64,000 bases of DNA. Source: Isoetes taiwanensis. Lineage: Eukaryota > Streptophyta > Lycopodiopsida > Isoetales > Isoetaceae. Numbering within the stretch: position 1 is the first letter of the stretch; each line of letters begins with the position of its first letter. A model generated the notes under the pieces. The model was not told the DNA's origin and made no database searches. It worked only from the letters and a program-made list of their open reading frames with translations. The stretch lies in NCBI GenBank assembly GCA_021234155.1, contig JAJEKV010000101.1:2895089-2959088 (forward strand), written 5' to 3'. Both the position numbers and the translations under genes were made by a program. Shown piece after piece: positions 22,680 to 63,685 of this stretch.

Positions 22680-23829
22680 TCATGCACTGCTTTTGTCACT
22701 CTTGGCTTTAGCATTATCATATTCCTCATTTGACAGCATAGATATCATAATGAAGATCACATATGCCATCTCCAGTGCTCTTCGCAGCTCATTATCCCTA
22801 ACATCAGATATTAGGCATCCCTCCCTAATAACTTTGAGGCACTCCAGATCATGAGCAGCAGATAGTGCATGTAGATGTGAGTCACCTGAAGGACAAACGA
22901 TGACAATAGTAAAGGACCTCTCAGCTGTCAATCCTTTACAGCTGGTAAAGAAGATGATATAGTCCTTCTGGTTCATCTCCATGTCTCCTCTCCTACCTCT
23001 CTGTCCAATACAAAGAGTGATATGTTTCTAAGGCAAGTAGTTGATTTTGGCAAGAGACCTTTGTACCCAATGGAGACTGACTACTGGACAGTGTCTTCTT
23101 CTCCAATAATCTTCTTCATACTTTTCTTCTCAACTCGACCAGTATCTTAGGGGGCAGAGTCTCTTTATGTTTTACATTTTTAGCCTTCCAATTCTTTAGG
23201 AAGTCCTTTAACCAAAATACAAACTTCTTAATGTCATCATTACTGACCTTGTACTTGTCCAGCAATCCAAATTCAGATAATGCAACATCCATCAATAGCC
23301 TTTATAATTCGGTTCCTATAGTTGTCTTGTACGTACATCCTTCACATGGCTGCAGCACTCATGAACGAAGGACATCCTATCCTTAGCGAAAGCACTCTTC
23401 TTGTACAAGGCTTCCTTCTTCAGGAACTGGTTTAAAACCCAAATGGTCTCAGTGTCGTCTAGCCCTTGAGTCATTTTCATCTCTGTTACATTCAAGTCAA
23501 AGATGCTTACATCAACAGTATCTGACAGCTTCTTTTGTGCATAAGCGTCACAGAATTCATTCCACGCCATACTACCTCCTTAAAAAAGGCAATCTTATAC
23601 GAGTCTGTTGGACTTGACATGCTAGATGTGTTATCAGAAGGATCTGCATTGTCATCACTACCTTTTTTCTTCGATTTTCTTGCAGTCTTTTTCGTCTCCT
23701 GTATAATTGTCTGCGACAGACTCCGCTCCAGCAGCTTGAATGCCTCAGACTTTGACCCGCCCTTTCTCGTGGGTAATGGGCAGCCATATTCCATCCATTC
23801 TTGACGGGCATGGCGCAGTTACTCGGCAT
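22680..23829 (-). CDS. RGG gene 3' exons (broken)
   Basis: After an acceptor (TACTATTGTAG, just above 23865) the minus strand reads LRHARQEWMEYGCPLPTR, then a Lys/Ser-rich linker (23794-23590). After a shift comes WNEFCDAYAQKKLSDTVDV (23570-23316), then LLDKYKVSNDDIKKFVFW (about 23270-23170) and a final block to 22680. A TAA stands in frame near 23819 and two or three frameshifts separate the blocks. No family was recognised. Confidence 0.4.
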
Positions 23830-23872
23830 ATGGACTACAATAGTACAGAAATTGGATCAGTATCTTAGAACA

Positions 23873-24106
23873 GAAACACGCCTAACGCGAATTGAATTGA
23901 TTTAAAAGCACGCCTGTTAACACAATTCATGTCAGGCGGTGTCCTCACATCAACGCAATTCGTGCCAGACGTGCTTTACGCTATGTAGAAAGTATGCCTG
24001 GTGCGAATTGAATTGATCAACATAGAAAGCACGCCTGGCGTGAATTGAATTGAATTAAAAGCACGCCTATTAACGCAATTCACGCCAGACGTACTTTTAA
24101 ATCAAA
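23873..24106. repeat. Left subterminal repeat block of the transposon
   Basis: Six or so units of about 20-30 bp around CACGCCTGGCGTG in both orientations, separated by AATTGAATTGATTTAAAAG. The core is a near-perfect inverted repeat. Such arrays often bind transposase; that role is inferred. Confidence 0.75.
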
Positions 24107-24134
24107 GGTCTAAGTTAGATATTGGGGTACAAAA
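24107..24134 (+). repeat. Left 28-bp terminal inverted repeat
   Basis: Starts GGTCTAAGTTAGATATTGGG and ends GTACAAAA. It is the exact reverse complement of 31604-31631 with no mismatch. Confidence 0.9.
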
Positions 24135-24243
24135 GCACCCGTCCGGACGCTCTGCTTTTCGTGCTTGATCTGCTGTGTTTGGGGGTGCTTGGAGAGCGGG
24201 AACACGATGATCCGTTTTTAGCAAATTGCTTAGGATCGATGAC

Positions 24244-27194
24244 ATGGCTGTTCAGAAAATCAAATTGGTTCAAAATGATCCGGCGCTGGATACTGTTTTT
24301 GAGATGTATGGGTCTGTTTCTTGAATTCTTTTTGTGGCGGGAATGATCATTCAGCTTGTACCTCCAAACGAAGCGTTCTTTGTAGATCCACGGTTTCTCA
24401 GTCTTTGCAAAATTCTACGTACATCACGATCCTCAATGGATCAATCAGTTTTGATTTGGATGAGGAAAAGAGACTCAAAGTTTTCGGGAAATTCAAGCCG
24501 AGAGAAGAAGGCAATCAAGGCAATAAAAAGAGAAAAGAGAGAGAGAAAGAAAACTTGCACCGAAATTGAGCGAGGCTCGAGTCGCGAGAAGGCTTCAAGA
24601 ATTGTCCAAAAAAATGGACGATTATTTCAACGAAATCACAAAGCCTTTGAAAGAAGGGGATAAAGCAATGGTGGTGCATGTGATTTGTGAAGAGAGTGAA
24701 GGCGAAATTGCCATTTGGGAAGTGGATTTTGTTGATCATGATCAAAGCAAGATCATGAAGAATGTGACTAAAAAATGTTCAGAGAGACACTCAATGAACA
24801 AAAGAAATTAAGGAAGAGCAGATGTATTGCAAGCAAGAAAGTCTACTTTGCAAATGGTATCTTCATCAGCAAAATCCATCAACCAATCTGGCCACACCGT
24901 CTCCTTCATATATCTAGAAAATCTGTTGTTGCCGCAACCGTAAGAAGAATAATGTAAGACCAAGAATGTGGTCCGTGGGTCAATGTTTTCAAGGAAAAAG
25001 AGGTGTGATACATTGAGTGACGAGGTTAGGAATTGTGTTTACAAGTTAAGACCGGACAGTAAAAACACGAAGTTTCACCATACTGAAGAAGCATGTGAGA
25101 AAGTTTGTTCTGGCCAGATGGCGATAAAATTGATCATCCAATACAACCGCTTGAAATATCTCGGGTGATTTCCACGCTTAGTATGTTTCTTACATTTGCA
25201 TATATCCTGTTTCTATGTAGATCTTCTTTGTTTGCGGTTGCAATTTTACATGAACTTCAAGAAGGAATATAATGACATTAAGATTACCCAAAAGCACATT
25301 TGAATTCTTTGAAGCCATCATTTGTGGCGCTTTAAATGAAAGAGAAACTTGTCACGCCAATATCACATGCACTTTGAATATGTGATGCAAGCACTCAACA
25401 AAATCGAAACAGATCCAAATGGCGTGCATAAAGATTGCAACCGTACTTGTCTTTGTTTGTGGTGATGGTAACTTTTGTGCGACCAAGAACCATGTTTATA
25501 AATCCACTAGTGATTTTTGGAGGCAAATGATCCGCCCTAAGGATGAAGATGAAGCGTGGTACAAACATAATTGTCTGATGGTGGCATGCAAGGATTGTGG
25601 ATTGAAAAGGTACTCTTTTTTTAATGTTAAGATGTTTGAACATTCTATTTTGAGTTGTTAAGATGATTGATGCAACATCTTACAAACAAATTTCTGTGTG
25701 GTATTACAAACAGGTTGCCAATATGTCCAAAGGAGAAGGAGGAGTCTGATTACAAAGTGGAGTGTAAAAACAGTTTGAAAAGGTAGTGTATTTGGCATTT
25801 GTGCTTAAATGATTTTTGTGCTTGTGATTGTTGTGCTTGTCTTTGTAAACTTACAAACTGATCTTTTGTTTTCAAAAAAAAGCAAAGAGGTTGGTTACAT
25901 GAAGGAGACCACCAAGAAAAAAATGGCAGGAAAGAAACCAGCAAAGGTAACTAGACTTGCATACAAGAAAGAGAGCCTGCCCCAATTCCAGCAGCATGCT
26001 TCGAAGACACTGGTACAATTCATCCCACACAATTATGTTGCACACTGGCAGGCAAAGCAATTCAGGAAGTGCTTGGATACTTTTCCTGAAGGTGCAGTTG
26101 TCTCGGTTATTGATTTTGCTGAAAATTACAGTTTTAAAATTCAGAAAGAGGCACAATCTTGCCAGCTGGCGCTATCGATCAGGCATCAATTTTGGTTCAT
26201 ATCACATATAGACATGCACCCCGGGATGAGATAGAAGATATGGAAGCTAAGGAAGCGAGAGAAGGGAACTAGAGAAGGAAAAGCAAAGAAAGAAAGAGGA
26301 AGACAACTCGCCAGATCATCGGCCAGTAATGAGAGGAGAATCATAAAGGAAGTACATTTTTATATTTCAGATGATAGAGATCATAGCAGTGAGTTTGTAC
26401 AACATTGCTTGAAAGTTCATGCATTGGTGGCTCGAGTACAAAATATTTTGTACAACAAACATATTTTTGGAGTGATGGTTGCACAAAGCCAGGTTCAAAG
26501 GAGCAAGACCTTTTGGTATTTAGGAAGGAACTATGTCAATAGTGAAGGAATTGAGTATGAATGGAATTTTTTGCCACTCTCATGGGAAAGGAGAACATGA
26601 TGGACAAGGTGCAATCCTAAAAAGGATTTTGCAAGAGAACAATTGAAGTATGATTCCCGGAAATTGAGCTGCCAAAGACGTTGTGGATTTCATGAATTGG
26701 TATATGATGAACAACCCACCGGACCCAAATATAAGAAGGTAAATTCAATGGGTACCATTGCATTCTTCTTCATTTGAGGTGACATTTTTCTGTTCTATAT
26801 TGCGTGTTTTTGGCATATTGAACCGAAAATGTAGACAAATCTGAAAAAGAGGGAATGGAGATCACTTTGTGGGAGCTCTAAACTTCATTCCATCAGACCA
26901 TGTGATAAAACAAATCCTGCAAAAGTTGCCCACGAGGTGCCTCTCTTGTTTCTCCCCTTTTGCTTTCATGGGAAATGGGATGATTGCATGAACAAAGCTT
27001 GATTGGGAGCTTGGTCCACAAATGAACTGAAGTTGAAGAAATCTATGAGAAAACAATCACCAACAAAAGCGGTTCAAGATGAAGATGAGGATGAGGATGA
27101 AGAAGAGGATGATGATGAGGCTAATGAATACCTCAGTTCTGTTCTAGAAGTTGGAGATAACTTTGCTGTAAATGCAGATCCAGAGGATGATTAA
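24244..27194 (+). pseudogene. Transposase-like gene (IDFAENYS ... HDGQGA family)
   Basis: A proposed start at 24244 opens MAVQKIKLVQNDPALDT. Coding blocks follow in three frames. A charged segment lies at 24440-24810. A Cys block, CLMVACKDCGLKRYSF, lies at about 25570-25625. A basic linker is at 25880-25970. The core carries VSVIDFAENYSF (26102-26137), then ILVHITYRHAP (about 26190-26222), FISDDRDHSSEFVQHC (about 26366-26412), FWSDGC (near 26465-26483) and SHGKGEHDGQGAILKR (26578-26625). A Glu/Asp-rich tail ends at 27194. This order matches an uncharacterised transposase-like family known from plants and animals. Asp in IDFAEN, in SDG and in HDG are possible metal ligands (inferred). Introns or small indels separate the blocks, so it is broken as read. 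Confidence 0.6.
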
Positions 27195-28232
27195 GGAGTT
27201 GACTTTTATGTTCTTAGGTGTCTGAGACTAAAAAATACATTGTTAGATGCATATGAAGACTCATGGGGTTCTCGCATTTGGTGTGGGAGAAGTCATAGTT
27301 TCCGCCACTACTACAAGCGCATTGAGATGCACTCAACTTTGAGTTATTAGTGGACAAGCCAGTTGCTAGTGTGTACAGTCACCTTATTAGACAAGTGAAA
27401 TTTGATATGGAGAGTCTTGGCAACAACAAGTTCAAGATGAGTGAAGAGACATGCCAAAAAGTGATGGCATCCCTTCACGTAGACCGCTAACTGCTGCCGA
27501 CCGTTTTTCGCTTACGCTTCAAGAGGCGTAAGCACATCATTCACATGTAAAGTGGCTCATTGCTGCTACATTGTTTCTAACAAACCTATCAATGGAAGCT
27601 AACAAATTCTTTGTTGCCACGAAATTTGTAGTCCCGACCGACTTTGTGCAATGTATCTTTGCCGGTGCTTTGGTGCTTTTCTCGCTTTGTCTGGCCGTGC
27701 TAATTGTTTTCGCGAGTTTATGCTTAACATCGTCATCCCCTTCGGTTTGGTCCTTGGAAACAAATGGTGGAAACTTTCGCAAGTGTTCAATTGGGGGATC
27801 AAGCCAAGACAATGCACAAAGTAAATACTCTAAACCCTTTTTACATGTATATGTTCAAAGATTGGCTTCATATACGAGGTTTGTTTGTTTAACCAATTAG
27901 GATTTGGACTTCATCTTTGGATACGTAGACAAGCATAGGAGAAACCATTACATTCAAATATAAACTGGGACAACAATTTTGCAAGTAGAAACTCGCAAGT
28001 GCGGGTAAATATTATATTCATTAGATACAAAATTGTTACAATATATGTACAAAGCGTACAACTCACTTGTTGTAATCATTCTGATTACATCTGAGCTAAG
28101 TTATATAAATATTGAAAAGAATCTATAGACTCTTATTCTACTGCGGAGAATTCCCAAGGTCGCATCATTTGAAGTGCCGTGTGATAAAGAATAAGAGTAG
28201 TATCGTGTGTTTTATCTTCTCTTGCGTGCTCT
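27195..28232. other. Junction between the two transposon genes
   Basis: A frame on the minus strand at 27812-27537 (91 residues, Lys/Thr-rich, starting MSWLDPPIEHLRKFPPF) may be the last part of the leftward gene. The opposite frame at 27571-27900 is hydrophobic and is judged its shadow. Nothing else is recognised. Confidence 0.35.
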
Positions 28233-31200
28233 TCATCCCTCGTTCATTGACAAAATCAAGATATTACCTGCAGGATTGTTATTATTATCTTCATGTACTT
28301 TATCTCCCGCCTGCATCAGTATGTTTATACTTATATCATCTATGAAGCCTTGTAGCTTAGACATCTCCTGGCTACCAACTTGTACTTCTGTTTCTATTTT
28401 CTCCAAAACATGCTCCATGTGAACACATTTGTTTATCTGTTTCTATGTTGCTATCATTTTTATTATGAGTTGATGCAGCAGAGTAGTTACCTCAATTGCT
28501 TCCTCGAACCGCAGAACTTCTAGGTTCTCGTCAAACCAAGTAATTCAAATCAAACAACATACAAAAAATGCAACTAAATGAATTGAAAGCAATGACATTA
28601 CTACAATCACTTCAATAGCATAACAACACAACTAAATGAAATTAAACAACATACCTTAACAATTTCCTTCATTAACTGAATGCTTTTGAGAATAGCCACT
28701 TTCCACCTCGCTCGCTCACTTAGATGGTCAGCCAGAAGCCTAAGTATATCGATGTCCTCTTCTTGAACTTTATCTTCAACATACCGCTTTGCGGTAACCA
28801 CTTTTTGAGGATTCTTGGCATGGAGCCAAGTTTCAGAAATGCAGACTAAGAAATTGAAACCTTTGTCATTGATGTCATTATCAAATTTTTCAATTATGAA
28901 GCAAGTGTCTTGTGGGGACAAGAAAGTCTTGTACAATGAGTCATCAAACTAGCACTAGCTCCCCTACATCCTCAAAAGCCTCATACACTTTTACAATTGG
29001 CTTCATAAGCACTGGCTTGTTCGGATTCCCCGGAAAATTGAAAGGCATCACCTACGCACTCTTCGACCCCAAATGAACTTGAACCTTCCTATAAAGGAAG
29101 GTGGCACTATAACATTTAGGATTTCTATGATGTTGTGCTTCATCATAGAAGACCATATGGCTACCTCAAACCGGCAAAGCACCCTTCTAAAAACTTTTAT
29201 CATACAGTGCAGACACCACCACTTTCCCCGCATAATGCTTCTTCTCTGTTTGAATTTTAATTTCGGTTCTTTTTGGAATGTGCTCACCAGAACTCCATTT
29301 AAGTCTAGGATGACAAGTTTTTCTTTTCTAAGGGTGCGCAACATTCATAAAACAAAAACTCAAACATCAATAATTCCGACATCAATTTAATGGGGTCTTT
29401 AAATTCAATTCAACAATTCGGGAACATCAACAATTCAGTCTTAAATTTAACATCAACAATTACGACATCAATTTAACGGTCCTAACATCAATTTCGACAT
29501 CAATTTACTTGCTTATTTCAAAGTTTTAGGAACTCATTAATCGAACCCGGACGACCAGTTAACATTTTGTAAATAACATTCTGATGATCACCTTTTGGAG
29601 GTTGTGTTGGCATCTTCTTAGGGGGCCTATCCTTCTTCTTTCTCCATTGCGGTGCTTGTACTTGTTCTTGTTCTTCTTCTACATTCTTCCCTTTATCAAA
29701 GCATTTGTTGCAATGTGATCGCACCACCGGCTTCTTCGTCCCGGATCTACAACTTCATCAACCCCGGAGCTTTCTCCTGCGGTTCTACTCCTCAACCTCG
29801 ACTTTTTATGGTGCTCACAACCTGCAAGCGATACTGTTCGGGCTCTTCTTCTTCATCGGTCTGTCAACCACTAGTGCACGCTTTTACTCTCTTTTGGGCT
29901 TTTCCTTAGCAACTCGAATCGAAGGAAACTAGTTAGAATAGACATGAAATAAAGTTTACAAAACAAACACATAAAACACCAAATGGTTACCTTTTTAATG
30001 CTTTCAGCGTTGTAACAGGACTTGGTGATGCCTACGCCTTTTGTAACAGGTTTTGGTGATGCCACGGCTGCTAGAGTATAATCGAGAACTAATGGAGACT
30101 CAAAGAACAAATTGTGGTGAAGAATTTGATTTGTTTGTAGGGTGAAACAAAAGCACTACTAGTGCCACGCTTCCAAACCCATCACGATGGCTACCTCACT
30201 CCATCTTCAGCTCCAACTTCTAAAACCAAGTTCCACAAACAAATCCCTCGAACTTCCTTTAAGCACCGAAGCATGCCTTCTTTTCATACGAGCATGCAAC
30301 ATGCCAAGTGATAGGCATGTTCACATGGCAACTTCATACTCAAAGTATATTGTGGATTGAATACCAATCCACATGCAAAGACATGAGTTCTCCATAAAAC
30401 ACGGCAACCGCTCTTCATAGTCATGATAGAGATTCTGAAGTGTCTGGTGCATCAACCGCCTAGCGAGCTTCTAAACGACCACGCTTTCTTGAAGTCCTGA
30501 ATTTAAAGAGGCTTTTAGCCTTTGCTTCTTCTCCCTTCGTCTCTTTTGCTTCAACACTTACCTTTGGAAGGCAAGCTTCGGTTTGGAGCGTAAGTAAAAC
30601 TCTCCACTTATTTTATGCTTCAAATCGCAATGGGTCAAATCTTCATCTGTTTTATCCGCTTTGTCATTCAAAGTGATAATTCATTCTCAGAAGTCTACTC
30701 ACCTCCGTCTTTGCTATATCAATCATTACTTGCTCCGTGCTAGGGAGTTGTTGTCAACCTCAATCTTACTAATAATCTTAGCCAAACTGCGTTTTGACGG
30801 TTATCTAACTCGTTTCCAACTTCTTTACTTCCTCATCAATCAAAGAAATATTGAAACTACAATTGCAAACAGAAAATTCATTTTGGCTGACCTGATTTCG
30901 CTTTTAATTCCATCCGAGGTGTTCTTCTTTGAAGGCTGAGGTGTGCTTTGGCCCGAAGGATGTCACGGTTTTCATTTTTTAACATCTTTCTTTACATCCA
31001 TATCATCCCTTGGTTTTTTCTCGACCAAATAGTAACCCGTGACTTGTATGCATCCCAATTTATCTTATGACCCTCATGATCTTGCTCGACGCGACCACAA
31101 TGCTCCCAAGCAAATGCCAAAGCAACGAAGTTTCCTCAATTCGTTGTTTGGTAATCCCGGAATCGTGATACGTGAACTCGACCAAGTCCTCCAATTGTTG

Positions 31201-31349
31201 CTTCAGATGAGTGCGGACAAAATAAATTTTTATTTTGCCTTTTTTCTTTAAAGGATTGAATGGTTTGTCCATACCACCGTTTCAATCTTCTTGATCCATG
31301 ATCCCGCAGCCCGCCGGTTTTTGGCGAGGAATAATCCCTTCTCCGCCAT
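28233..31349 (-). pseudogene. FCP1-like HAD phosphatase gene carried by the transposon
   Basis: Read leftward. A proposed start at 31349 opens MAEKGLFLAKNRRAAGSW, followed by KIKIYFVRTHLKQQLEDL (about 31235) and GYYLVEKKPRDDMDVKKD (about 31045). A basic Pro/Lys linker lies at 29727-29530. The phosphatase domain then carries KLVILDLNGVLV (about 29320-29285), FEVAIWSSM (about 29170-29140), FPGNPNKPVLMKPIVKVYEA (about 29035-28975) and FDDSLYKTFLSPQDT (about 28950-28907). A coiled C-terminus ends at 28233. DLNG replaces the usual DLDET-type motif, as in several plant FCP1-domain proteins, while the DDS motif is kept. Such proteins remove phosphate from Ser residues, for example in the RNA polymerase II tail. 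Exons are separated by introns and some indels. Confidence 0.6.
29355..29515. repeat. Degenerate repeats of ACATCAA(CA)ATT
   Basis: Seven or more imperfect copies of ACATCAAYAATT / ACATCAATTTA within about 150 bp. They lie between the phosphatase domain and the basic linker, probably in an intron. Confidence 0.6.
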
Positions 31350-31603
31350 CGAAAAAAAGCGTTGAATTAACCAAAGAGCAAGGTATGAAGCAAAGGAAGA
31401 AAAAAAATCTCGAAAAGCAGAGGGTACAATTCGAACTGTAAAGTAGGGTATAATCTGCGTACAGCAGATCAATTATCGATTTCGGCGCGAATGATTACGG
31501 GTCTGACAGCCCAGATCATTGTTTGCGAAATGGCGCGCGGGAAACGAGAAGGTGCGAAGAATAGCTGCTTCGCGTGCTTAATCTGCTTCCGCTTGTCGCG
31601 CTT

Positions 31604-31631
31604 TTTTGTACCCCAATATCTAACTTAGACC
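31604..31631 (-). repeat. Right 28-bp terminal inverted repeat
   Basis: Exact reverse complement of 24107-24134. It reads TTTTGTACCCCAATATC at its inner side. Confidence 0.9.
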
Positions 31632-31750
31632 CTCAAGGCAATTCGCGTTAGGTGTGCTTTACGCTGTGTAGAAAGCACGCCTTGCGTGAATTAAATTGAT
31701 TTAAAAGCACGCCTGACGTGAATTAAATTGATTTAAAAGCACGGCTGAAT
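31632..31750. repeat. Right subterminal repeat block of the transposon
   Basis: Three to four units with GTGCTTTACGCTGTGTAGAA and AAAGCACGCCT-(G)ACGTGAATTAAATT, matching the left block in inverted order. It is shorter than the left block, so part may have been lost. Confidence 0.75.
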
Positions 31751-31776: not shown

Positions 31777-32097
31777 TTAATTACCTTTTGTATAGAAACA
31801 TTTTTTCCATTTCGTTTGGTTAATCTTAGCCATATCTGCAGGTGAAGTATTAGCATCCAAGAATCGACATCTCCTATACGCATAGTGATTGTAGAACATT
31901 GTTTGGCCTGTTTGTTCTACCTGCATAATAAGGGCCTTTTGTGCCTCAACTAAATGCTGCCCATCGATGATGACGAATTTAATCTCATCATTTCCTAATA
32001 ACTCCTCGGCATTCGACCACACAGCAGGCTTGTTCGCGATCGAATCCCAAGGTAACACATCTGTTGGCGTAGGCATTTGACCTGGATTACTAATCAT
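31777..32097 (-). CDS. RGG gene later exon with a DGQH motif
   Basis: About 106 residues, including LPWDSIANKPAVW and KFVIIDGQHLVEAQKAL. A donor (AAAG/GTAATTAA) follows KWKKCFYTK at about 31790, after which the intron enters the right end of the DNA transposon. The hydrophobic strand before DGQH recalls DGQHR/ParB-like folds, a weak resemblance only. Confidence 0.45.
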   Translation of the reverse strand: MISNPGQMPTPTDVLPWDSIANKPAVWSNAEELLGNDEIKFVIIDGQHLVEAQKALIMQVEQTGQTMFYNHYAYRRCRFLDANTSPADMAKINQTKWKKCFYTKGN

Positions 32098-32275
32098 GCT
32101 CTAAACAATCTCCATGGCATGTGCTGAATCATATGTTCTGCTAACATAAATGGAGCTTGGTGAACGAATGAGGTGCTTCACATATATAGAGCTGAAAAAT
32201 TGTCTTAAGACCACATGGATAATGGTCAGAGTACTTATTCAGCTTGTTTATGGCCTCCATTTGCGCCACCCTATC

Positions 32276-47209: not shown

Positions 47210-48630
47210 CAATCTTCCCTTACAAGGGGACCTTGTACTTTACACTATACCGTCAAGAACAAATATGCCCTACCTCGATCAGATGATTTGATGGATCAGC
47301 TGCAAGGAGCAAAGGTCTTCTCCACGATAAATCTAAGGTCAGGCTATCACCAGATCAGAATCAAGGAAGAGGACATCCGCATTCAGGACGAGATATGGTC
47401 ATTATGAGTTCACAGTGATGTCGTTTGGATTGTCCAATCCTCCAGCAACCTTCATGAGGCTCATGAATGATGTTTTCCGCGAGTTCCTAGATACTTTTAT
47501 CATAGTTTTCTTTGGTGACATTCTAGTCTATAGCAAATCCTTAGAGGAGCATGTCCAGCACTTGAGAAAAGTACTTGAAAAGTTGAGGAGGCATCAGCTT
47601 TTTGCGAAGCTATCCAAGTGTCACTTCGCAACAGAAAGAGTAGAGTACTTGTGGCATGTAATCACAGCGGAAGGGATCTCCACCGACCCTGCAAAGATTG
47701 AAGCGGTAATTGATTGGCCGGCACCAAAGAACATACATGAAGTGAGGAGCTTTCACGGCTTAGCAGAGTATTATAGGAAGTTCGTCAAGAACTTTGCAAA
47801 GGTGGCAGCTCCATTGACGGACCTCACCAAAGCAGGAAAGATAAAGGATTAGGCGAGTCATTGGCAAAGGAAGGCCCATGCAGCATTTAAGACATTAAAG
47901 GAAGCTTTAACGACTGCGTCAGTCTTAGTCTTGCCAGATCCAAGCAAGGATAAGCTTGTAGCGACAGATGCTAGCAAGATAGCAACGGAGCAAATTCCTC
48001 ATCATGAGGAGGGAAGGGTAGTCGCATACGACTCCAAGAAGATGAACGATGCAGAGCAACGCTACCCGACTCATGACCAAGAGCTTCTGGCCATTGTGAG
48101 GGCCTTGAGAATCTGGAGACACTACTTGTTGGGAAGAAAGTTCCAACTAGACATAGATCATCAAAGCCTCCAGTACATATTCACGCAACCACTCCTGAAT
48201 TTGAGGCAAAGGAGGTGGATGGAGTTTCTCGAAGAGTACGACTTCGAAATAGTCTATAAGCCAGGCAAGCTAAATGTAGTAGCAGATGCGCTCTCTAGGA
48301 GACCATTGAAGACAAGAACCCATTGCAACGCTATATCGACTCTCACAAGTGAGTATGGCAAAAGGATTGAAGAGATGTTGCCATCAGACGGCGACTTTAA
48401 AGAAGCGTGGGCAAGCCTCTCTAAAGAGGCAAGAACAGATAAGAAAAGGGAGACCTTCAAGCATTATAAAAAGGAAGGTAACCTCCTATATCATAAGAAT
48501 AAGTTGTGTGTACCAGAATCTTCGGGGGTAAGGAAGTTAATACTCCACGATACATACAACAGTCCCATAGCCGGGCATGCAGGGTTCATGAAGACATATT
48601 TCAAGGTCAGAAGCAGCTACTTTTGGCTCG
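47210..48630 (+). pseudogene. Ty3/gypsy pol relic, copy B (RT, RNase H, start of integrase)
   Basis: RT begins at about 47233 ([19 protein letters not shown]) with [13 protein letters not shown], where Asn stands in place of the first catalytic Asp. A short loss and frame change follow near 47380. The frame 47415-47852 carries [13 protein letters not shown], in which FFGD replaces the usual FFDD, so the second catalytic motif is also lost. RNase H lies in 47931-48300 with TDASKIAT, DAEQRYPTHDQELLAI and DHQSLQYI, its acidic residues kept. ADALSRRPL marks the connection, and NKLCVPESSGVRKLILHD with AGHAGF the start of integrase. The element is cut off at about 48627, where a foldback begins. 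No LTRs are recognised. Confidence 0.85.
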
Positions 48631-48788
48631 GCCATCTCTTTCACCTCGCCTTACTCCCTTTTCGATTTTCCTATTTGAATGATCTAAAGTGCCACCTAAA
48701 ATGAGTGAGCGAACTCATCCTAGAGGGCACTTTAGATATATCAAACATGACAAACAAAAAAAGACTAAGCCGAGGTGAAAGAGATGGC
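48631..48788. mobile_element. 158-bp foldback (hairpin) element
   Basis: GCCATCTCTTTCACCTCG (48631-48648) is the exact reverse complement of 48771-48788. The arms continue imperfectly inward for about 65 bp each, including ATCTAAAGTGCC pairing with GGCACTTTAGAT, leaving a loop of about 30 nt with its own small stem (GAGT...ACTC). No target duplication was found. It could be a MITE; a transcript would fold into a small-RNA-precursor-like hairpin (inferred). It sits exactly where the Ty3 integrase frame ends. Confidence 0.7.
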
Positions 48789-59689: not shown

Positions 59690-61845
59690 TTGGGAATGGA
59701 TTAAAGAGGATATCTTTTCTACATATATAGATTTCTTGCAAGTTGACAATTTAAATCCAAGATTGAAAACATGTTGCATTACCTTGGTACCCAAGTATAA
59801 GGAGCCAAGCACAATTAATGACTGGAGGCCTATCACACTTCTATCTGCATTTGACAAAATCATAGCCAAGGCTATGGCAGAGAAGATCAAATCAATTTTA
59901 GCAGAAGGTACCTCACAGACCCAATTTGGCTTCCTTTTGGGTAGGAGCATTCTGAGCAATGTGGTAGCAGTTTTCGAAGGGTTGCACTGGGCCAGAAAAA
60001 CAGGTCAAAAGTAGCCTATCTAAAGCTAGATTTCACCAAGGCTATGACAGCATTAGATGGAGTTTTTTGCATAGAATGATGCTCAAGCTGGGTTGTGGGG
60101 AATATTTTATAGAAGGGGTAATGAAACTGTTGAGATCTGCTCGAGCCTCAGTCTTATTTCAAGGAGAAACAGCTCCAATATTTGACATTAGGAGGAGAAT
60201 CAAGCAAGGTTGTCCCTTGGCCCCCTTCCTCTTCAATATAGCAGCAGAAGCTCTCTCACAGATTTTCTTGCAAGCCTCTGTAGACGGTCTCATTCAAGGA
60301 CTAGAAATGTGGAACGGTTCTCAACAAATCTGTAACCAATTTGCAGATGACTCATTTCTGTTTTTAGAGGTAGAGGGAAATAACTTGTCATGTGCAGGCC
60401 AATTATTGGCCACCTTCTCAATAGCTTCAGGTTGCCTCGTAAATTGGAAAAAATGCTCAGTGCAGTGGCCTTTGGGGTATAGGCATCCTAAATATTTGGA
60501 AAGTTTACAATGGAAAATTATCCCTGAGAGCAAACACTCCAGTTTATTAGGAATCCCAATGGGCATGAACATCACCAATGCGCAAATATGGGACAATGCT
60601 CCTAGGCCTTCATAGACACTTAAATTGGTGGAAGGTAGCAAAGTTATCTCTTGCAGGGAGGATTACTGTGGCAAAATATGTGCTAAGTAATAGTTATGTA
60701 TACATGTCATCAATTCTACTTGCTCCTAGGGAGAAGGTGCAAGAATTAGAAGGGTTGATTTGCAACTTTGTCTGGGGAGGAAACAAAGATGCAGTGGTCA
60801 AAGTTGCTAAGTGGAACTGCAAGAGGGACAAAACAGAATAGTATTACAAAGTAAAGCATTAATAGCCAAATTCATATGGATGATCCTGCAGAAAAAGGTG
60901 AAGTCTCCAGGTATGCACCTCATGAACCAGGCTCTATTATTTTCATGCCCTCTGTCAAGGTATCGCTCCTATGGTCACTCTTCTTTGATCTTAACCAAGT
61001 AGAGAACCCCCCCCCGAAGGGACTTATTTCGGCTTGGAATGCCATAAAGAAGCTATTCACACTTGACATCAACAATTTGAAGCAGAGACCTCTCTATACA
61101 GCAAGACAAGTTTGTGAAGCCATGTTATAGTAGTTTGAAGACTAAGGGGTTACTTCCGGTATCTACCAAGTGGGAGATAGTGATCACATAGGACAACCTT
61201 AAAAACATCTGGAGAAACACTTGGCTGAAATACCTTCCTCCACAAATCAATGCCTTTCTTTGGCAAGTGATCCACAGGGTTCCAAGGTTAATCATCTAGT
61301 CACCAAATGGGACAATAATGTGAGCCCACTCTGCCCTTCGTGTAAAGAGGAAGAGGAATCCATAGAACATTGCCTGATGGAATGTAAGATGCTGCAAGAA
61401 GTCTGGGACTGGAGTCTGGATAGCTTTGAGTACTCTTTAGGAACTAAGGAATTGCTATTAGGAATTCTCACTCCAGAATGGTGTCCCATGAAGAAGATGT
61501 CATTTCACATAGCTAGAGCCTGGACAATTTGGTCAATATGGAAAAGGAGGAACCTCCTAATCTTCGATGAGAATCAGGAGAAATTCATATCATCAAACCA
61601 GCCACTTCACATGGTACTAGAAAGAATTAGAAGATTTAGGTTAGTGTTTGAAAGTGAAGAAGAAGTAAAGGAAGATATATAGGGCAGATATTTAAATCTG
61701 CTCTAAGTCGAAAAAGAGAGTAGTACAAGCTAGAGCCATGTAGCTATCTCCATCTCATATTCATAGATGGGTGCACCCTTGCCATGTGGCTTTCTATCAT
61801 TCTCTCTAAATAAATAAAATCTTTTTTATCCCTCAAAAAAAAGGG
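59690..61845 (+). pseudogene. L1-type LINE, 5'-truncated ORF2 (RT and zf-RVT)
   Basis: WIKEDIFSTYIDFLQVDNLN opens the RT. NDWRPITLLSAFDKIIAK and SQTQFGFLLGRSILSNV are fingers motifs. LDFTKA(Y)D (about 60026-60050, one base missing) holds the first catalytic Asp, and IKQGCPLAPFLFNIAAEAL is motif 4. FADD is intact at 60340-60351. LLGIPMGMN, HRHLNWWKVAKLSLAGR and VWGGNKDA follow. The C-terminus (61221-61682) has the zf-RVT finger LCPSCKEEEESIEHCLMEC and SIWKRRNLLIFDEN. The 3' end is ATAAATAAAATC...CCCTCAAAAAAAA at 61806-61842, a poly(A)-like tail. Several single-base shifts and one TAG near 61129 break it. The endonuclease domain and ORF1 are absent. Confidence 0.85.
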
Positions 61846-62782: not shown

Positions 62783-63685
62783 ATGAGGAACAGGCTCATT
62801 CGATCAAAGTGGAGAGCAAAAAATTGTGGTCAGTTCTATTGCCAATCTGCTTTGGTTGGAATACCCAATGGCTGGGTTTTAGGGTTTCGAGATTATGGAA
62901 GTTGCTCATATGCGATTAAGGCTTTACCGTCTAGCTCTCAGATAAATCTAAGTCTGTGGTATAGGCAGCCTCGATTGCAAAATGCATTGGTATACCTGGA
63001 AAAATCAGAGACAGAGATAGACACCGCTGCCTATGCATGTCTACTGCGGAGATGTAGCAAAGCAAAGGCTCTGTCAGAGGGAAAACTGGTGCATGATCAC
63101 ATTAGAAGAAATGGGCTACAGAATGATCTTTACCTTGGAAACCACCTTCTTGAGATGTACAGACAGTGTGCGAGCTTGGAAATTGCCAGACTTGTGTTTG
63201 AGGGAATTTCTAACAGGGATGTGATTTCTTGGACCATCATGATCGCTGCTTATGCCCAGAATGGCCATTGTAAAGAAGCCATATGTCTTCTCCAGCAAAT
63301 GTACTCAGAAGGCGTGAATCCTGATAGGGTTACCTTTGTGACATTGTCAGAGTCATGCACAGAACCAGAAGCCTTGGCAAATGGTAAAGTTATTCATGCC
63401 CGTGTTATCAAGAGTAGTTTAGACTTAAATGTTGTTTTGGAGACTGCAATTGTTAATATGTATGGGAAATGTGGGAATGCTGAGGAGGCTCGAAGGATTT
63501 TTTGTAGGATGCATCAACGTGATGATGTTTCATGGAATACCATGATTGGCATATATGCAGAATGTGGAGATTCAAAAGGAGGTCTAGAATTAGTCAGACT
63601 AATGCCTTCAGAAGGAATACTGCCAAATAAGATCACCTTCCTTGGCATCCGCAAATTTGGCCTTGAATTGAGGCATTTTGTGTAA
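62783..63685 (+). CDS. Pentatricopeptide repeat protein (PLS-type), truncated
   Basis: 300 residues. The first 70 are basic and Ser/Arg-rich, compatible with an organelle transit peptide. From about residue 79 come PPR motifs: TAAYACLLRRCSKAKALSEG, LYLGNHLLEMYRQCASLEIA, NRDVISWTIMIAAYAQNGHC, VNPDRVTFVTLSESCTEPEA, AIVNMYGKCGNAEEARRIF and DDVSWNTMIGIYAECGDSKG. This is the P/L/S triplet pattern of plant RNA-editing and processing factors in mitochondria and plastids. After PNKITFLGI the expected next repeat (usually L-ACSHAG) is replaced by RKFGLELRHFV and a stop. There are no E, DYW or further repeats before the window end. Either a frameshift or a genuine truncation; the editing function would be lost. 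Confidence 0.8.
   Translation: MRNRLIRSKWRAKNCGQFYCQSALVGIPNGWVLGFRDYGSCSYAIKALPSSSQINLSLWYRQPRLQNALVYLEKSETEIDTAAYACLLRRCSKAKALSEGKLVHDHIRRNGLQNDLYLGNHLLEMYRQCASLEIARLVFEGISNRDVISWTIMIAAYAQNGHCKEAICLLQQMYSEGVNPDRVTFVTLSESCTEPEALANGKVIHARVIKSSLDLNVVLETAIVNMYGKCGNAEEARRIFCRMHQRDDVSWNTMIGIYAECGDSKGGLELVRLMPSEGILPNKITFLGIRKFGLELRHFV

Follow-up and report, generated by a model that had tools for sequence, protein, structure and literature searches.

Introduction

In the CACTA/En-Spm and PIF/Harbinger superfamilies of DNA transposons, the transposase has a partner protein that is conserved from family to family. Another superfamily of cut-and-paste elements, Sola, was reportedly described by Bao and colleagues in 2009 with three groups, Sola1, Sola2, and Sola3. 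According to excerpts of more recent papers, Sola elements have a 4-bp target-site duplication, a transposase with three catalytic aspartates (DDD), a length of 2-9 kb, and terminal inverted repeats (TIRs) of 11-1124 bp, and are known from moss (PMC10741241); Sola1 is listed for Physcomitrella (PMC9033089) and Sola repeats for a fern (PMC6890710), and Sola2 of Dictyostelium makes AT-rich duplications of the form AWWT (PMC3627910). Here, we describe a transposon of the lycophyte Isoetes taiwanensis, found in a stretch of 64,000 nucleotides (the window: contig JAJEKV010000101.1, here C910, positions 2895089-2959088 of assembly GCA_021234155.1) and followed through the whole assembly (1,658,258,908 bp in 1,110 contigs). 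The window holds what is probably an inactive copy of a class II (TIR, cut-and-paste) DNA transposon. Its intact relatives code for two proteins, a transposase and, on the opposite strand, a companion that likely acts as a helper. A preliminary description, made from the window alone, had proposed a 7.9-kb element with two convergent genes and an unassigned superfamily; the identification of the companion as a RING and FCP1/NIF protein, its retention, the 4-bp duplication, the derivatives resembling miniature inverted-repeat transposable elements (MITEs), and the candidacy of Sola go beyond that description.

Results

Ends and target-site duplication

The window contains an exact 28-bp inverted repeat (24107-24134 and 31604-31631), as first described, and it lies far beyond chance: with up to 3 mismatches allowed, the genome-wide count is 261 matches in forward and 269 in reverse orientation (about 530), against 0 and 0 for a reversed-pattern control. 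Inverted-end copies exist elsewhere by the hundreds. In six other full-length copies (7,517-7,562 bp), each with a perfect 4-bp duplication, the repeat is one base longer (GGGTCTAAGTTAGATATTGGGGTACAAAA, 29 bp). Because the ends of these copies fix the extra base, the termini of the window copy can be set at 24106-31632 with TCAA on both sides, the first G of its left end now being an A. The seven full-length copies, including that of the window, are 90.5-95.3% identical in pairwise comparison.

The element had been drawn larger (23870-31750, 7.9 kb) by counting as subterminal parts the arrays that lie outside these termini, and the arrays on the two sides do match each other in inverted orientation. 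However, the flanking DNA of the other copies diverges past the 29-bp end, the 4-bp duplication separates the element end from the array, and the arrays exist unbroken elsewhere: the 240-nt sequence made by joining both flanks around a single TCAA is uninterrupted at C924:1279303-1279543 (query 1-240, 90% identity) and near-complete at several further genomic places. The outer arrays are therefore a host repeat split by the element, and an element that takes them in is refuted on all three counts, with next to no probability left to it.

Branches, copy numbers, and size classes

A search with the transposase core gave at least 165 matches (148 of 8,850 candidates scored). Their identity extends from 100% down to about 51%, and several lie within long open frames. 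From these we sampled six branches: A (the window family), B (L026/L027), C (L024), D (L021 and L023/L025), E (L018/L020), and F (L019). The cores of branches A-E are as low as 52% identical, and full elements of branches A-D measure 7.1-7.6 kb with TIRs of about 29-30 bp of the form GGGT...ACCC. The end of branch B is identical to the 29-bp repeat (7,097 bp, duplication GAAT), that of branch C is GGGTATAAAATCACT (7,422 bp, ATGA), and that of branch D is GGGTGTAAATATGRTA (7,481 bp, TGCG); the D2 copy L025 has the same start point as branch D in a fetched stretch that stops before the right end. Genome-wide, the D end has 243 + 232 matches (475; reversed control 0) and the C end 49 + 47 (96; reversed control 3).

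Neighboring plus and minus ends were paired within 30 kb for branch A (first 100 of 389 ends listed) and within 12 kb for branches D (first 100 of 475 ends) and C (those of the 96 ends with possible partners). Perfect 4-bp duplications flank 75 of the 93 pairs examined (22/30 in A, 26/34 in C, and 27/29 in D), where chance, estimated by cross-pairing, would give 0.6%, 0.5%, and 1.1%, respectively. The A pairs span 7.15-7.57 kb (12 pairs), 2.2-4.3 kb (9), 258-273 bp (4), and 12.8-22.7 kb (5), the last being probably nested insertions; sizes among D pairs include 271-282 bp (5), 1.6-1.72 kb (14), and 8.94-8.98 kb (4), and in view of these last forms branch D probably has a longer type than L021. 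Internally deleted copies and MITE-like copies of about 270 bp keep just the ends. Of four MITE-like copies retrieved, two (L009 and L010) have no perfect duplication. One MITE-like insertion is present twice on contig C156 (L008, 75890-77159; L009, 197971-199241) in opposite orientation and with matching flanks, one copy being far more decayed; this is an inverted segmental duplication or an assembly duplicate.

Target preference and a motif of the left end

Position 1 of the 75 duplications is seldom G, and position 4 is seldom C (2/75 each). The bases adjoining the duplication are enriched in C on the left (38/75) and G on the right (39/75), and those one further out in G on the left (32/75) and C on the right (31/75), with binomial p values between 7e-10 and 2e-5 for a background of 20%. 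The target preference is thus the palindrome GC-NNNN-GC, which is new. A second new feature is restricted to the left end: in branches A and B, window included, the palindrome GTCCGGAC occupies bases 36-43 of 12 of the 18 left ends and is present in none of the 17 right ends. The left ends without it mostly differ by one-base changes or small gaps. It recurs at the equal position in branches C and D, while the D2 copy reads TTCCGGAC there. TGCTT/AAGCA was dropped as a true subterminal repeat: in the first 150 bp inward from each end its enrichment over inner windows is weak and not seen at all ends, with inner windows as rich as the end in 1/108 cases for the A left end and 3/107 for each D side, and in 64/99 for the B right end and 9 and 13 of 106 for the C ends, the last three ends not standing above inner windows.

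The transposase gene

Two convergent coding regions lie between the repeats (Table 1), confirming the gene pair of the preliminary description, and both are broken by stops and frame changes in the window copy, which is presumably inactive for that reason. In the window, the transposase core has lost its frame and carries one TGA and one TAG. In the stretches fetched for branches A-F, the transposase has a common order of an N-terminal part (predicted to be helix-turn-helix-like, a fold name read from the letters), a Cys-rich middle, the core, and a C-terminal part. Open-frame relatives carry the core motifs IDFAENY, HFYISDD, WSDGC, and HGKGEHDG. The residues D169, D286, E325, and D327 (L018 numbering) are invariant across five aligned proteins, of which L020 lacks HGK; D169 and D286 together with D327 or E325 may be read as a predicted DDE/D triad.

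In keeping with the uncharacterized family of the preliminary description, the transposase carries no Pfam identity: neither the window copy nor the relatives scanned match a Pfam family above cut-off. A match of the L019 transposase to PF23335 (E 0.00023; 20.4 bits, where 27 would be needed) was taken as chance. NCBIfam gave no match for the two transposases scanned, and the best hit of a PDB sequence search (E 0.7) is unrelated. Relatives were sought with a single protein and a five-protein alignment in viral contigs, with the alignment in prokaryote contigs, and by tblastn in plasmids and phages; none was found in viral contigs, prokaryote genome contigs, plasmids, or phages, in searches that either needed near-exact short peptides or covered prokaryotes, viruses, and plasmids and are silent on other plants and animals. 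The core motif appears in no text found by a literature search of open-licence papers. Similar proteins with IDFAENY/SDGC/HGKG presumably exist in plants and animals, which we treat as an unconfirmed lead. Beside the E-branch transposon, a 397-aa open frame (L018:2-1192, plus strand) encodes what we take, from its letters alone, to be a Pif1-type helicase.

Table 1. Coordinates of features in the window copy of the transposon and at its insertion site.
Feature	Position	Strand	Basis
Whole element, 7,527 bp	24106..31632	+ (transposase strand)	Comparison with six further full-length copies and their 4-bp duplications
Left target-site duplication, TCAA	24102..24105	.	Comparison with full-length copies
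Left TIR, 29 bp, first base A not G	24106..24134	+	Repeat comparison and full-length copies
GTCCGGAC palindrome, left-end bases 36-43	24141..24148	+	Comparison of ends
Transposase N-terminal part, broken	24608..25161	+	tblastn with relatives' translations
Transposase middle part, Cys-rich, broken	25232..25619	+	tblastn with relatives' translations
Transposase catalytic core (predicted), broken; in relatives IDFAENY ... SDGC ... HGKGEHDG	25884..26739	+	Core search, alignment, tblastn
Transposase C-terminal part (Cys cluster, acidic run, VGDNFA... domain), broken	26796..27472	+	tblastn
Companion FCP1/NIF phosphatase-like domain, broken	28661..29357	-	tblastn; Pfam NIF match of this piece, E 0.0016 (below cut-off)
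Companion RING-type Cys/His finger, broken	30212..30376	-	RING search and tblastn
Companion predicted coiled coil	30450..30876	-	Homology; heptad-like sequence and SMC-type matches of relative L026
Companion N-terminal domain, part	31034..31126	-	tblastn
Right TIR, 29 bp	31604..31632	-	Repeat comparison and full-length copies
Right target-site duplication, TCAA	31633..31636	.	Comparison with full-length copies
Host repeat flanking the insertion (not part of the element)	23874..24105 and 31633..31750	.	Uninterrupted copies elsewhere

The companion gene and its retention

The companion is encoded on the strand opposite to the transposase. Its N-terminal domain is followed by a coiled coil, then by a C3H2C3 finger of the RING type, and last by an FCP1/NIF domain. 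The FCP1 part is interrupted by six stops in the window, but Pfam NIF is matched above cut-off by relatives in branches A (L003, 2.9e-15), B (L026, 1.7e-16), and C (L024, 1.6e-13), as in the FCP1/NIF (HAD) phosphatases of eukaryotes, and the domain is seen by tblastn in branches D and E. A strict RING pattern, C-x2-C-x(9-20)-C-x-H-x(2,3)-H-x2-C-x(4-20)-C-x2-C, occurs at 6 of the 10 loci scanned, in branches A, B, C, D, and F; the E-branch RING is matched by tblastn and departs from the strict pattern. The N-terminal domain is present in branches A-D and was not found in the stretches fetched for E and F. Motif I of classical FCP1/NIF domains is DxD, with the catalytic form DxDx(T/V). In the branches in which it was seen, the companion instead reads DLNGVL or DINGVL at motif I, the catalytic form being absent, while LVDDS is kept in branches A, B, and C. 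The companion thus differs from the eukaryotic phosphatases in its DLNG/DING motif I and in being joined to a coiled coil and a RING finger inside a transposon.

The convergent layout with RING and FCP1 is found in five of the six sampled branches (A-E). Genome-wide, we counted pairings among 132 of 150 listed transposase rows (leaving out the last 18, which cover half of the core), 141 of 150 listed FCP1 rows (leaving out nine second pieces), and all 150 RING rows. Among these matches, an FCP1 part lies within 7 kb of 44 of the 132 transposase places, downstream and convergent in 44/44, and a RING part lies within 8 kb of 43, convergent in 43/43; RING is upstream of FCP1 on the same strand for 101 of 141 FCP1 matches, and the other order was not seen (0). 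When copies of branch A are compared with those of branch B, dN/dS (non-silent over silent change) is 0.17-0.24 for the core (256 codons), 0.17-0.20 for FCP1 (225), and 0.15-0.23 for RING (65); for most remaining branch pairs silent sites are saturated. Because these ratios are low even though pseudogene decay after insertion raises them, both genes appear to have been under constraint while the branches diverged. The retention of the second gene by distant branches suggests that it helps the element to move or survive.

Several points weigh against the reading of the family as a cut-and-paste transposon with a helper gene. No perfect duplication was found at 18 of the 93 end pairs, and 88-89 of the 132 transposase places have no companion part among the matches listed, a figure in which the bounded listing, deletion, and divergence are not distinguishable. 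FCP1 was not found at the branch F locus L019, where the RING part is present, and all RING matches fall under the Pfam cut-offs. The PDB has no relative of the B-branch FCP1 domain at E<=0.01, and NCBIfam HAD matches are far under their cut-offs. Since motif I reads DLNGVL/DINGVL, the FCP1 domain is possibly no active phosphatase; DxN at this motif may mark a dead enzyme. Finally, FCP1 of two B copies has a dN/dS of 0.29-0.55, a value resting on few changes and not firm.

Some of these observations would also suit a companion that is a captured host gene, carried as a passenger without function for the element in the manner of Pack-type captures: both of its named domains, FCP1/NIF and RING, are of a host type, Asn stands in place of the second motif I aspartate, and many copies have no intact companion. 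The order and convergent orientation are nevertheless equal in five branches and the non-silent/silent ratio between A and B is about 0.2, which makes a passenger improbable, and we continue to favor a helper.

Superfamily

The view that this is not a classic plant type holds. hAT elements, which make 8-bp duplications, are excluded by the 4-bp duplication and by the lack of a hAT Pfam match, and PIF/Harbinger elements, which make 3-bp duplications, by the 4-bp duplication and the lack of a DDE_Tnp_4 Pfam match. From excerpts of one description (PMC10741241), MULE/Mutator elements have duplications of 7-12 bp rather than 4 bp, CACTA elements have CACTA/CACTG ends and a 3-bp duplication rather than GGGT ends and 4 bp, Tc1/mariner elements duplicate TA, and Ginger elements have TIRs of 40-270 bp with TG...CA ends rather than 29-30 bp with GGGT...ACCC, although their 4-6 bp duplication would fit. 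The MULE transposase family PF10551 is also not matched; as a control, every one of 150 scored matches to this family in the same genome exceeded the cut-off.

Sola or a near relative is our best guess for the superfamily, since Sola is the sole superfamily, among those compared by description, to fit the 4-bp duplication, size, TIR length, and predicted three-acid transposase; the comparison is by description only and the assignment is not proven. An ordinary, Sola1-like element in which the two-gene layout is a detail of the plant lineage has about an even chance. It accounts for the 4-bp duplications, lengths of 7.1-7.6 kb (about 7.5 kb in the window family), TIRs of about 29-30 bp, and three predicted acidic positions, the third of which may be E325 or D327 of L018 where Sola has D, in keeping with the excerpted Sola description (PMC10741241), as well as for a host among the non-seed plants, Sola1 being listed for Physcomitrella (PMC9033089) and Sola repeats for a fern (PMC6890710). 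The likeness is, however, one of description and not of transposase sequence. The AWWT duplications given for Dictyostelium Sola2 in excerpts of PMC3627910 differ from the GC-NNNN-GC consensus, in which the bias inside the duplication is confined to positions 1 and 4, and a conserved RING-FCP1 second gene goes unmentioned in the excerpts of Sola descriptions. Our search of open-licence papers found no link of FCP1/NIF to any transposase family and no report of Sola in Isoetes. Non-transposase second genes do occur in Sola2: Fanzor-carrying elements of Dictyostelids likewise combine 4-bp duplications with such a gene, but their partner is Fanzor1 rather than RING-FCP1 and varies between near-identical elements, according to the same excerpts (PMC3627910).

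CACTA/En-Spm and PIF/Harbinger elements resemble the Isoetes element in their two-gene make-up but differ from its convergent genes, 4-bp duplication, GGGT ends, and RING-FCP1 partner, theirs being TNPA or a Myb-like DNA-binding protein. Alternatively, the element could represent a new bipartite superfamily with the RING-FCP1 protein as an integral second subunit. In favor of this are a transposase for which Pfam gives nothing above cut-off and the PDB no relative, the two-gene layout kept in A-E, and features common to several branches, namely GGGT termini, the palindrome of the left end, and the target consensus; yet the coarse description of Sola also fits, and given the similar plant and animal proteins presumed above, the transposase family may already be in Repbase. 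We think this rather unlikely. Its fuller form, a plant superfamily with chemically distinct ends and GTCCGGAC at the left only, in which the opposite-strand RING-FCP1 protein is obligate and would use ubiquitin and phosphate signaling to act on the transposase itself or on chromatin or polymerase of the host, is a speculative proposal that we consider doubtful.

Surroundings of the insertion

The host repeat split by the element (also seen at L028:479-829) is built of units in both orientations (AAAGCACGCCTGGCGTGAATT and its complement); its joined flanks have 139 matches genome-wide, and it makes up a separate family of fold-back-like repeats. Minus-strand open frames on either side of the insertion (31777-32100 and 23507-23818) have no Pfam match at E<=0.01 and are possibly halves of one gene or older mobile element split by the host repeat and the transposon. 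Further along the window, Pfam identifies reverse-transcriptase RNase H and integrase zinc-binding domains in an open frame at 47853-48704, the remnant of a long terminal repeat retrotransposon, a reverse transcriptase at 59968-60615 (RVT_1, 6.1e-14), and pentatricopeptide repeats at 62783-63685 (PPR_2, 1.6e-26).

Discussion

The family described here has defined ends, 4-bp duplications, hundreds of end matches, deleted and MITE-like copies, and two convergent genes that have been kept, and an autonomous-type, two-gene convergent DNA transposon is supported. In the mechanism that we propose, the transposase from the plus-strand gene would bind and pair the 29-bp ends, cut them with the predicted DDE/D, RNase-H-like site (IDFAENY, SDGC, GEHDG), and insert the element with a 4-bp stagger into palindromic sites like GC-NNNN-GC; deleted and MITE-like copies would be mobilized in trans. 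Less certainly, the companion would be a working helper under selection rather than a passenger, and it would most likely target host proteins, through ubiquitin and/or phosphate marks of the carboxy-terminal domain (CTD) type, so that expression or transposition is allowed.

These elements make up a large and apparently uncatalogued class of repeats in an early vascular plant (at least 165 core matches; 530, 475, and 96 end matches). If they belong to Sola, then plant Sola elements are two-gene machines; if they do not, they constitute a new superfamily. A gene with RING and FCP1 domains that is kept while the transposases come to differ by almost half would provide a test case for how DNA transposons manipulate host transcription or silencing.

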